This document shows, one piece after another, positions 11,289 to 18,329 of a stretch of DNA of 38,127 bases. Within the stretch, counting starts at the first letter, position 1, and each line of letters opens with the position of its first letter. Source of the DNA: Fidelibacterota bacterium TCS55 (GTDB taxonomy: Bacteria > Fidelibacterota > Marinisomatia > Marinisomatales > TCS55); assembly GCA_001577025.1 (NCBI GenBank), contig LSCF01000007.1:1-38127 (forward strand), given 5' to 3'. The position numbers and the translations under genes were made by a program. The notes under the pieces are model-generated. The model saw only the letters and a list, made by a program, of their open reading frames with translations, was not told where the DNA came from and did not search any database.

Positions 11289-13115
11289 ATGCGACTGATT
11301 TACCTCTGGACCACCCGAATCATTCTCGCCATTGCTGTGGTGGGAATCCTGCCTGTTCAAAATAATGCATCTGTTTTGGTTGCACAGTCTAAAAAACAGA
11401 AAGCGGCTCAGGCATCTAAATATGCCAAAAGAGGCAACACCAAAGCGAAGAAAAAAGATTATAAGGGCGCCCTTTCTGATTATAAAAAAGCCTATAAGCT
11501 GAGACCGTCTGCAAATTATAAAAAGAAAGTTCAGCAGCTCACATCCTTAGCAAAAAAAAGCAGCAATAGTGCATCTACTAAAAAGAAACCATCCAAAAAA
11601 CAAATGGCCCAGGCATCCGCTTATTCAAAAAGAGGCAATTCCAAAGCGAAACAAAAAGACTATGCTGGTGCATTAAAGGATTTCCAAAGAGCATATAATC
11701 TCAATCCATCCTCATCCAACAAAAAAAAGATTCAACAACTCACATCCATCTTAAGCAAACAGGGGAGAAATGTAGCATCTACACCCACCAAGGCAAAAAT
11801 GCCACCCGTTTCAGATATTCCCACTATTAGCCCGGTAAAGTATGCGAATGATATTTATAATATTGCCGAAGCCTTTGAGCTCAGTTCCCGAAATCTTGCA
11901 CGTGCAACTAATGTATTAGAATCCACGAATGCCAAAAAGGTTGAGCGGGTGGAAATGCGGCGGGCACCATCCACGGCTGATCTTGAACGGGCTGCAAGGG
12001 TAGAACCTAATGACTTTAGAAAACAGGTGGATTTGGCTCGCCATTACGAAGCCGGCGGCCGATTTGAAGATGCAAAAGAAATTTACTTAAAGCTGGCGGC
12101 ACAGCATCCCTTTAATGCAGATGCCCATTTCCATTTAGGCTCCTTTTATGCGCGGTTTAGTCAATTGACAAAAGCACGTCATGCCTTTGATGAAGCCATG
12201 GATGTCCAACCAAATCATCGGGCCACTATCGAAGCTATGGCTACATTATTTGGCTCCGTTGAAAAGCAAAATTTATCTCAAGATATCCTGACGAAGTCAG
12301 CACAAAGAGACCCCACCGGTCCCGGACAGCGTATGAAGACCATTCGAACCAGTCTGGATAATGGCGACTATGAATACGCGGTCAAATTGGCCATTGGGGG
12401 GCAAGATATGTTTCCTAGACAGAGTGGCTTTGTGTATTTAAAAGGATTGGCATACGAAGGGTTGGGCAATTTGGATAAAGCGAAGGCGAGTTATCAGGAG
12501 GCCATTAAACAGGATCCCACTCATCATGAATCTTATGTGGCATTGGCCAATCTTTATTTTGCCCAAGGGAAGCATGTCTATGCTGCTTTGACCTATGGGG
12601 ATGCCATACGAATTGATCCATCGGATAAAGATTCTCGATTCAAACAGGGATACAGTTATTTTAAGGCCAATGAATGGGCGAGAGCAGCCAATACGTGGGA
12701 GGACTTGCTCCACTACGATCCCCACAATCAAAAGGTGCGGATGCTGTTGCCTCAAGCCTATTATATTTTAGCAGTAGAATATAACCGAGCCGGTGAATCT
12801 GGATTGGGTCAAACATCCTTCCGTAAAGCACTGAGTGTGAATAAAAATTCAGGTGTGTGGTTGCCCGGATCAATGCAAATCCTAGGCGGTATGTATCGGG
12901 ATAAGGGTATGTTTAGGGAATCCTTAGCAGCCTATCAAGAAGCCATCGAATTAAAACCATCAGACGCTCAAACTTATCTTGGGTTAGGTATTACCTATTG
13001 GAAGATGAAAGAATCAGGATTAGCTCGAGCCGCGTGGAATCGATCTATGGAGTTGGACCCTGCCAACAATGATGCACGTGGGTGGCTGCTGTTAGCCGGT
13101 AAAACTTCGGGTTAA
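11289..13115 (+). CDS. Exported TPR-repeat protein with duplicated N-terminal module
   Basis: This 608-residue protein has an N-terminal hydrophobic segment (IILAIAVVGILPV) that serves as signal or anchor. Two very similar basic 63-residue modules follow, at about 35-97 and 103-165, each with RGNxKAKxKDYxGAL and KKxQQLTS. A linker comes next, then a long TPR array at about 245-605 (VYLKGLAYEGLGNLDKAKAS, DAQTYLGLGITYWKMKES). TPR arrays mediate protein-protein contacts, and this one probably works in the periplasm. No enzymatic domain is visible. The start ATG has no Shine-Dalgarno, as for several neighbours. A hairpin follows the stop codon by 13 bases. The binding partner is unknown. Confidence 0.82.
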   Translation: MRLIYLWTTRIILAIAVVGILPVQNNASVLVAQSKKQKAAQASKYAKRGNTKAKKKDYKGALSDYKKAYKLRPSANYKKKVQQLTSLAKKSSNSASTKKKPSKKQMAQASAYSKRGNSKAKQKDYAGALKDFQRAYNLNPSSSNKKKIQQLTSILSKQGRNVASTPTKAKMPPVSDIPTISPVKYANDIYNIAEAFELSSRNLARATNVLESTNAKKVERVEMRRAPSTADLERAARVEPNDFRKQVDLARHYEAGGRFEDAKEIYLKLAAQHPFNADAHFHLGSFYARFSQLTKARHAFDEAMDVQPNHRATIEAMATLFGSVEKQNLSQDILTKSAQRDPTGPGQRMKTIRTSLDNGDYEYAVKLAIGGQDMFPRQSGFVYLKGLAYEGLGNLDKAKASYQEAIKQDPTHHESYVALANLYFAQGKHVYAALTYGDAIRIDPSDKDSRFKQGYSYFKANEWARAANTWEDLLHYDPHNQKVRMLLPQAYYILAVEYNRAGESGLGQTSFRKALSVNKNSGVWLPGSMQILGGMYRDKGMFRESLAAYQEAIELKPSDAQTYLGLGITYWKMKESGLARAAWNRSMELDPANNDARGWLLLAGKTSG

Positions 13116-13128
13116 AATCTAATTTAAT

Positions 13129-13158
13129 TGTAGGGAACGCATTATTGCGTCCCCTACA
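13129..13158. repeat. REP-like hairpin after the TPR gene
   Basis: TGTAGGG-A-ACGCA (13129-13141) pairs with TGCGT-C-CCCTACA (13146-13158) with a single A-C mismatch and a four-base loop. A short T-run (TTTT) follows two bases later, so this copy could also end transcription of the TPR gene at 13115. The arms match the hairpin at 10015-10044 in design (TGTAG ... ACGCA) and share the ATTGCGTCC core with the element at 3071. Confidence 0.7.
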
Positions 13159-16222: not shown

Positions 16223-17761
16223 ATGCCCGCCAAAGTCCTCAGTAGTGCTATTCTTGGTATTGACGCCTATGTGGTGGATGTAGAGGCGAGTCTATCCGGG
16301 GCGAAACTACCACGATTTATAACAGTGGGACTGCCGGAAGGGGCAGTGAAAGAAAGTAAAGAACGGGTCACGGCAGCCATCAAGAATAGTGGTTTTCGAT
16401 TTCCCATCAAGCATGTGACGGTGAATCTTGCGCCTGCAGATATCCGTAAAGAAGGTTCCGCATTCGATCTCCCCATTGCCATTGGTATTCTGGCCACCAT
16501 GGGGAATGTGAAAAAAGAATATTTAGATAAACTCATGATGCTGGGGGAATTGGCATTGGATGGTTCATTGCGTCCGATTCGGGGCGCATTGCCCATTGCT
16601 ATTTGCGCCAGAGACAAGGGTATTAAAGGAATAATCGTTCCCAAAGAAAATGCCAAAGAAGCAGCTGTGGTGAATGAAGTGAAAGTGGTAGGGGCCGATT
16701 CGTTAAATGAAGTGGTAGATGTTCTAAATGATGAAGTAATCAAAGAATCAGTCTTTGTGGATCGGCAGGAGATGTTTCGGTCCAGCCGCAACTACTATGT
16801 GGATTTTACCGATGTAAAAGGGCAGGAGCATGTAAAACGGGCATTAGAAGTGGCTGCTGCAGGAAGCCATAACCTCATTATGATAGGACCTCCCGGGAGC
16901 GGTAAAACCATGCTGTCAAAACGAATCCCCACCATTCTTCCGGATCTCACTTTAGAAGAAGCGCTTCAGACCACGAAGATCCATTCTGTAGCGGGACTTA
17001 TGCCACAAGGTGAGGGCATCATTGCTACACGGCCATTTCGATCGCCTCATCATACTATTTCAGATGCAGGATTGATCGGCGGTGGCGCAGTCCCTCGACC
17101 GGGAGAAGTAAGCTTGTCTCACAATGGCGTTCTCTTTTTGGACGAACTGCCTGAATTTAAAAAGAATGTATTGGAGGTCATGCGTCAGCCATTGGAGGAT
17201 GGCGTGGTGTCCATAGCGCGCGCCGCCGTGAGTTTGAGCTATCCGTCCAGGTTTATGCTGGTGGCGGCCATGAATCCATGCCCATGCGGCTATGCCACGG
17301 ATAGTCATAACGAATGTAGCTGCACATCCCAGATGATACAAAAATATATGAGCCGTATATCCGGACCATTATTGGATCGAATTGATATTCACGTAGAAGT
17401 ACCGGCAGTCCCATTTACAGAATTGGCGGAACGAGAACCGGGAGAACCATCCGCCGCCGTGAAAAAGCGTGTGCAGGGGGCAAGAGAAGTCCAGTTGAAT
17501 CGATATGAGGAATCGCACATTTTTGCCAACGCCCAGATGGAATCAAATGATTTGAAGCAATTTTGTAAATTATCGAAAGAGGGGGCTGCATTATTAAAAA
17601 CCGCTATGGATAAATTGGGGTTATCTGCCCGGGCATACGATCGTATTTTAAAAGTATCGCGTACAATTGCCGATTTGCAAGCTTCATCGGATATAGAAAT
17701 CGATCATATCAGCGAAGCCATTCAATATCGGAGTTTAGATCGACAGCTTTGGCTTGGATAG
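16223..17761 (+). CDS. comM: YifB/ComM family Mg-chelatase-like AAA+ ATPase
   Basis: This 512-residue protein has the ComM/YifB layout. An N-terminal Lon-protease-like domain (GLPEGAVKESKERV, VNLAPADIRKEGSAFDLPIA) comes first. The Mg-chelatase-type AAA+ core has Walker A GPPGSGKT at about residue 222, Walker B VLFLDELPEF, and a Cys-rich insert (NPCPCGY ... ECSC). A C-terminal helical domain (LSARAYDRILKVSRTIADL) ends it. ComM is a ring helicase that drives branch migration during natural transformation in species where it has been studied. Here its role in DNA uptake is inferred from the family. The start follows a hairpin-rich leader. It is followed by a RAYT transposase gene 37 bases on. 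Confidence 0.95.
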   Translation: MPAKVLSSAILGIDAYVVDVEASLSGAKLPRFITVGLPEGAVKESKERVTAAIKNSGFRFPIKHVTVNLAPADIRKEGSAFDLPIAIGILATMGNVKKEYLDKLMMLGELALDGSLRPIRGALPIAICARDKGIKGIIVPKENAKEAAVVNEVKVVGADSLNEVVDVLNDEVIKESVFVDRQEMFRSSRNYYVDFTDVKGQEHVKRALEVAAAGSHNLIMIGPPGSGKTMLSKRIPTILPDLTLEEALQTTKIHSVAGLMPQGEGIIATRPFRSPHHTISDAGLIGGGAVPRPGEVSLSHNGVLFLDELPEFKKNVLEVMRQPLEDGVVSIARAAVSLSYPSRFMLVAAMNPCPCGYATDSHNECSCTSQMIQKYMSRISGPLLDRIDIHVEVPAVPFTELAEREPGEPSAAVKKRVQGAREVQLNRYEESHIFANAQMESNDLKQFCKLSKEGAALLKTAMDKLGLSARAYDRILKVSRTIADLQASSDIEIDHISEAIQYRSLDRQLWLG

Positions 17762-17798: not shown

Positions 17799-18329
17799 AT
17801 GAAGCATTTTGATTATAGAAAACATATCCGATTGCCGGAATTCGATTATTCAAATCCGGGTATATATTTTGTAACAATTTGTTCATACAAGAAAAAGCAC
17901 ACTTTTGGCAAAACCTTGGATGGACAAATTGAATTATCAGCATTAGGAGAAATTGTTAATAAAAATTGGTTTAAAATTCCTGACCATGTTTATGGATTCC
18001 AATCAATAGAGTTTTGCGTAATGCCAAATCACATTCATGGGTTAATTGAATTAAATGAAAATAATAATTCAATATTAGGTTCAATTATTGGATCATATAA
18101 ATCATCTGTAACACGGGAATATAATAATCGTAGAAGCGAGGCATGCCTCGCGGCTACAAAAGTGTGGCAACCTAATTATTATGAACATGTGGTGCGGAAT
18201 GAGAATGCATTTGATTGGATTACTGAATATATCCGTATGAATCCTGAAAATTGGACTATGGATGAAGAAAATAGACATGCCTCCAAATCGAACCCCTTTT
18301 ATCATTGGCTCAATACCTATTGGAAGTAA
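17799..18329 (+). CDS. rayT: REP-associated tyrosine transposase (RAYT, Y1 family)
   Basis: This 176-residue Y1/HUH transposase has the usual N-terminus (RLPEFDYSNPGIYFVTICSY) and the metal-binding HUH motif in MPNHIHGL (His78 and His80). The catalytic-Tyr region follows in WQPNYYEHVVRNE (Tyr127 or Tyr128), with a C-terminal Trp-rich end. RAYTs nick single-stranded REP palindromes and act in trans on dispersed repeats. Residues 111-119 (RRSEACLAA) are encoded by a palindrome (18131-18156) that looks like a repeat inserted in frame. The protein is full length, so it may be active. Several REP-like hairpins elsewhere in the window could be its substrates. It follows comM and is not flanked by insertion-sequence ends. 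Confidence 0.93.
   Translation: MKHFDYRKHIRLPEFDYSNPGIYFVTICSYKKKHTFGKTLDGQIELSALGEIVNKNWFKIPDHVYGFQSIEFCVMPNHIHGLIELNENNNSILGSIIGSYKSSVTREYNNRRSEACLAATKVWQPNYYEHVVRNENAFDWITEYIRMNPENWTMDEENRHASKSNPFYHWLNTYWK
18131..18156. repeat. Palindrome inside the RAYT reading frame
   Basis: GCGAGGCATGCCTCGC (18136-18151) is a perfect 16-base palindrome. It is flanked by TAG (18131-18133) and CTA (18154-18156), which extend it as an imperfect inverted repeat. It falls between the HUH motif and the catalytic Tyr and is translated as part of RRSEACLAAT without breaking the frame. Its TAG...CTA outer arms resemble the intergenic hairpins, but the core differs. Confidence 0.75.

Follow-up and report, generated by a model that had tools for sequence, protein, structure and literature searches.

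The closest described relatives of the system considered here are the TnpA-REP proteins of subclass 2.4 (Quentin et al. 2018, PMC6006769), which the same work equates with RAYT group 4 of Bertels 2017. Members of this subclass go with double-foot REPs, and REPs are also found in-frame inside the tnpAREP genes themselves, generally between the HuH and the Y motifs; tolerance of such in-gene REPs in a peripheral extension of the protein has been proposed (PMC6006769). According to the same study, residues W94, Q95, E100, H101 and R104 of E. coli TnpA-REP contact the GTAG guide, and where other subclasses have an insertion between alphaC and beta4, it sits near the REP recognition region. In E. 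coli, the gene has flanking REPs (PMC2817692). REPs have also been described inside non-transposase genes, as GTAG/CGTC REPs and as Rickettsia palindromic elements (Di Nocera et al. 2013, PMC3733652).

Here we consider a RAYT gene in a 38,127-nt stretch of DNA (the window, taken at its full length), one contig of a Candidatus Marinimicrobia genome assembly (G000: 1.72 Mb, 98 contigs, 92% complete). The gene contains a double-foot REP that is read in frame. In our preferred reading, to which we assign a probability of roughly 0.8, this REP lodged in-frame in an ancestral RAYT gene, was tolerated and vertically inherited, and has since been preserved or rewritten in palindromic form at the DNA level.

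The RAYT gene and the palindrome within it

Table 1. Positions in the window of the features discussed in the text
Feature	Position	Strand	Remarks
Second GTAG..CTAC palindrome, core GTAGGGAACGCATTATTGCGTCCCCTAC	13130..13157		Intergenic; core unlike that of the in-gene REP
comM-like gene	16223..17761	+	RAYT is the next gene in G000, G063 and G059
RAYT / TnpA-REP-like Y1 (HUH-Tyr) transposase, 176 aa	17799..18329	+	Pfam PF01797 Y1_Tnp, 2.6e-9
HUH motif PNHIH, residues 76-80	18024..18038	+	P76, N77, H78 and H80 invariant in 36 homologues
Double-foot REP GTAG-AA-GCGAGGCATGCCTCGC-GG-CTAC	18130..18157		In-frame RRSEACLAAT, RAYT residues 111-120
Perfect palindromic 16-bp core GCGAGGCATGCCTCGC	18136..18151		Same in the G063 orthologue
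WQ...YYEHVVRN, residues 123-134	18165..18200	+	Alignment to 4er8
Tyr144 codon in YIRMNP	18228..18230	+	Y144 invariant in 36 homologues

The transposase (Table 1) is encoded by the only Y1_Tnp gene detected in its genome assembly. Its score against the NCBIfam model NF047646 (REP_Tyr_transpos), 72 bits with a cut-off of 80, far exceeds its score against the IS200 model, 25 bits with a cut-off of 55. From what is known of the family, we take Tyr144 to be the catalytic residue. The AlphaFold2 model of the protein (pLDDT 86) has as its top Foldseek match in the PDB the RAYT-REP hairpin complex 4er8 (E 1.5e-7, TM 0.54-0.58), and in the alignment to this entry residues W123, Q124, E129, H130 and R133 match the identical W94, Q95, E100, H101 and R104 of E. 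coli TnpA-REP. Residues 112-127 are essentially coil in the model, with helix 93-111 (alphaC) before them and strand 128-131 (beta4) after them, and two residues separate the end of the REP-encoded loop from W123. It is plausible that this alphaC-beta4 loop is a harmless linker, as a first-pass annotation of the sequence had it, but harmlessness is not to be assumed, because alphaC-beta4 insertions are placed near the REP recognition region (PMC6006769).

The same annotation had described a perfect 16-bp palindrome that is read in frame as RRSEACLAAT and lies between PNHIH and Tyr144, and the sequence and the open reading frame bear this out in full. The TAG and CTA that it gave as flanks are present, but each true foot has one more base at its outer end, GTAG at 18130-18133 and CTAC at 18154-18157, and these satisfy the double-foot layout of REPs (GT[AG]G foot, stem, C[TC]AC foot). 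Between the feet and the core, AA faces GG and stays unpaired (A.G twice). Folded as single-stranded DNA, the REP gives a hairpin of -7.5 kcal/mol (z -2.6) with a 2x2 internal loop.

Could such a palindrome in coding DNA be a product of chance? When the codons of the RAYT gene are shuffled 20,000 times, a bare 16-bp palindrome turns up in 452 of the shuffles (2.3%), which leaves a little room for this explanation; the complete double-foot 28-mer, with 12 or more of its 14 pairs, however, turns up in none of 20,000, and relatives of the palindrome are found elsewhere in the genome, in the REP family and in orthologues of the gene. Because of these related copies, which are described below, we reject chance and give it next to no probability. 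In the 38-kb window, the in-gene core is the only perfect 16-bp palindrome.

Copies in the genome and in the order

The first-pass annotation had also proposed to test whether the palindrome is dispersed as a repeat in the genome, and pattern searches of the genomes show that it is. The core is present in three copies in total in G000, with about eight matches to the wider class. The two further copies, GTAGGGTCGAGGCGTGCCTCGACCCTAC and ATAACCGCGAGGCATGCCTCGCTAATAC, are located outside open reading frames of at least 110 aa, and neither is in a convincing one; one of them, on C17, is found 17 nt past the stop of a gene. The 28-mer family, with up to two mismatches, is present in 12 of the 130 genomes of the order, mainly in those of the same family, while the reversed control pattern gives no match. 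The dispersed relatives are variable, too, at the two pairs that are unpaired in the window copy. The remaining extra core copy, on C42 of G000 (L003 1387-1578), is accompanied by a side observation: this region holds four different GTAG..CTAC-type palindromes in about 200 bases.

High copy numbers (above 100) of double-foot REPs are not seen in G000, and current activity of the REP in this genome is doubtful because the core has only three copies. No REP flanks the window RAYT. The sole other GTAG..CTAC palindrome in the 38 kb is about 4.6 kb upstream and has a different core (Table 1); it starts 14 bases past the stop of the open reading frame 11289-13115. For lack of a flanking REP, the window RAYT is not a classical REPtron.

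An orthologous intergenic site allows two genomes of the genus to be compared: it is filled by a REP, at the same 17 nt past the stop, in G000 and in its near relative G070 and is empty in five other members. A both-sided change distinguishes the stems in G000 and G070, and the form in G070 matches other REPs of that genome. Judged from this single pair of sequences, the REPs of a genome look to be evolving in concert. The core in the RAYT of G070 is unlike the main dispersed REPs of that genome, which breaks any rule that the core of a genome's own RAYT equals all of its dispersed cores.

Orthologues and homologues of the gene

The RAYT of G063 is the closest relative of the window RAYT, and in both the G063 and the G059 orthologue behind comM the REP is found at identical codons. 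Between G000 and G063 the cores are identical at 16 of 16 positions with 62% identity in the rest of the gene, and outside the REP region no aligned 16-nt window is fully identical. Between G063 and G059 two adjacent pairs of the core are changed on both sides, by which EACLA becomes EIYRA; the G059 core recurs, perfectly paired, elsewhere in the G059 genome. In a RAYT tree built without both insertion regions, whose overall resolution is poor, the copies at the site used by the window's clade form one group with one origin (SH-aLRT 90).

These orthologues bear on the question of what is conserved at this site. If the palindrome were a by-product of a conserved loop peptide, a frame and a position common to three orthologues would be expected, as is the case. 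The peptide, however, varies while the pairing is retained (EACLA to EIYRA), the palindromes of homologues are read in two frames, which yield unrelated peptides (for example VGATHASPLP and CRGGSRTAPT), and the same DNA motif is also found in intergenic DNA; we therefore reject this explanation as very improbable. Since the both-sided pair changes kept the pairing while the peptide changed, the persisting entity is the DNA palindrome and not the peptide. The same observations leave the earlier suggestion of palindromes evolving into protein weak.

How the REP came into the gene is less directly visible. Because the net gain in length over REP-less homologues is only a few residues, the sequences do not demonstrate a simple, clean insertion of 28 bp, a length that is not a multiple of 3. 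The comM gene is followed directly by the next gene, with no RAYT between, in G070, G071, G072, G073 and G065. G070, with a comM 97% identical, was considered as a REP-less allele for a clean test of insertion and is ruled out, for the entire RAYT is missing at that locus; its empty locus does not separate gain from loss. The first-pass annotation had set its idea of an inserted repeat against a segment ancestral to the family whose palindrome is found nowhere else. Ancestry holds, within the three-member clade, and absence elsewhere does not, as copies are found.

Two neighbouring observations are recorded here in their own right. On C21 of G058, a remnant of a RAYT follows comM, from which the part between the start and about the centre of the palindrome is deleted while the palindrome's right half and the C-terminal end are kept; this suggests a break at the hairpin. 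The RAYT on C23 of G063, in which the 28-bp palindrome is perfect, has a premature TAG past the catalytic core and may be decaying.

For a wider view, we examine 80 RAYT loci from many phyla. Internal double-foot REPs are present in 30 of them (31 copies, of which 26 are perfect palindromes), and REP density per Mb is 760 in the RAYT genes, compared with 448 in flanks of 300 bp and 52 in the remainder. The 31 internal copies are divided over the reading frames as 16, 15 and 0, and the zero is expected because the third frame reads a TAG stop. Nearly all are found just past the HUH strand; the exception is the window's clade, where the REP lies just before WQ..YYEH. An internal core has at most one mismatch to REPs of its own locus in 12 of 17 pairs (8 of 11 loci), as against 4% between loci.

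The survey also raises the possibility that the in-gene REP is selected as a cis element, either for self-regulation of the RAYT through binding of the hairpin or as a standing source of new REPs. Internal REPs are frequent, are perfect palindromes and extend over many phyla; at 19 of the 30 loci that have one, no REP lies within 300 bp, so that the internal copy is the only nearby one; and the core is fully conserved between G000 and G063. Against this stand the 50 loci of 80 without a recognisable internal REP and the turnover of the copies, whose presence needs 17 changes on the RAYT tree, and recurrent insertion with tolerance predicts much of the same pattern. The form of the structure can be narrowed as well. 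In a set of 30 distinct internal REPs, pairing is seen in 98.6% of cells, with 113 cells changed on both sides and G-U in 1 of 420, where the high pairing is expected of a set chosen for palindromy. The scarcity of G-U in these sequences leans towards DNA over mRNA structure and argues against selection for mRNA folding; an mRNA hairpin as the selected form is therefore disfavoured, which is not proof given how the set was picked. On balance we regard a selected cis element as possible but clearly the less probable explanation, and retain the tolerated, inherited REP as our reading.

Origin of the in-gene REP and comparison with known systems

In the mechanism that we propose, a REP would have lodged in-frame in the alphaC-beta4 loop of the RAYT behind comM in an ancestor of this Marinimicrobia family, and the reading frame would have stayed open as the loop tolerated a linker of about ten residues. 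The RAYT locus would thereafter have been inherited vertically, with frequent loss, and the palindromic DNA retained or rewritten to the REP variant of each lineage while the peptide drifts. The REP presumably forms a hairpin in single-stranded DNA that the transposase binds through the GTAG foot, and copying or conversion from REP to REP, by or around the transposase, could account for both the origin and the homogenisation of the in-gene REP. We infer that the window RAYT acts on its in-gene REP and that the REP-encoded linker is neutral. As to the earlier idea of a RAYT-type repeat inserted into its own mobilising gene, the dispersed repeat and its in-frame place in a RAYT loop stand, while insertion by the window RAYT protein itself, and with it self-mobilisation, is presumed.

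The same locus and the same codons in three species, together with one remnant, make it observable how an in-gene REP changes as DNA while the protein drifts. The orthologous series also makes the role of in-gene REPs testable, be it that of a bystander, of a source copy or of a regulatory site of the RAYT.

A separate lead comes from secreted proteins. Three genera of the same family, g4, g5 and g8 (genomes G058, G059, G062, G083, G084 and G086), have copies of the REP family in-frame in the C-terminal sorting domain of type IX secretion (T9SS; PF18962) of unrelated secreted proteins. The point at which these copies lie (TTTIRF..VGARHASPLQ..IYDITGR) and their reading frame are always the same, and several different cores occur among them. 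A minority of the sorting tails carry one: 4 of 53 in G059, 2 of 75 in G086 and none of 15 in G000; one of the G059 tails has the same core as the REP in the RAYT of G059. Judging by the sequences, either repeated insertion or exchange between tails may have produced them. Our limited literature search found no prior report of REPs in T9SS sorting tails, and these copies are the more novel lead compared with the in-gene REP. If confirmed, they would show that a mobile palindrome has entered many secreted proteins that are unrelated to one another, each time at the same position. More speculative, and a shade less probable even than selection as a cis element, is a combined picture in which the in-frame RAYT hairpin is a standing cis element rewritten together with its dispersed counterparts, and these hairpins also serve as interchangeable coding modules of T9SS tails, a mobile palindrome thus repeatedly supplying a loop of a functional protein.

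Compared with the known systems, the locus is nearest to subclass 2.4, with which it has in common an HUH-Tyr RAYT and an in-frame double-foot GTAG..CTAC REP between HuH and Y. The subclass motifs are NH[IFV]H, WQ and YIxNNP, of which the window RAYT has NHIH and WQ but YIRMNP. The REP site of the subclass is in the beta3-alphaC variable domain, an insertion domain that the window RAYT does not have, the segment being short, whereas the window REP is in the alphaC-beta4 loop before the GTAG-contact motif; in further contrast to the subclass, no REP flanks the gene. E. coli TnpA-REP (YafM, 4er8) is the best fold match and the only PDB sequence match, with identical GTAG-contact residues, but has 18% identity to the window RAYT, and its REP stem differs. 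With the intragenic REPs and the Rickettsia palindromic elements the locus shares a short palindromic repeat that is translated as a protein linker; it differs in that the host gene is the presumed mobiliser of the repeat, and in that the family is also found in T9SS tails. That a RAYT-associated repeat is lodged in this RAYT gene is well supported and largely of a known kind, in-frame REPs in RAYT genes having been described already (PMC6006769). What sets this case apart is the loop in which the REP lies, the absence of REPs beside the gene and a series of orthologues that share one locus.
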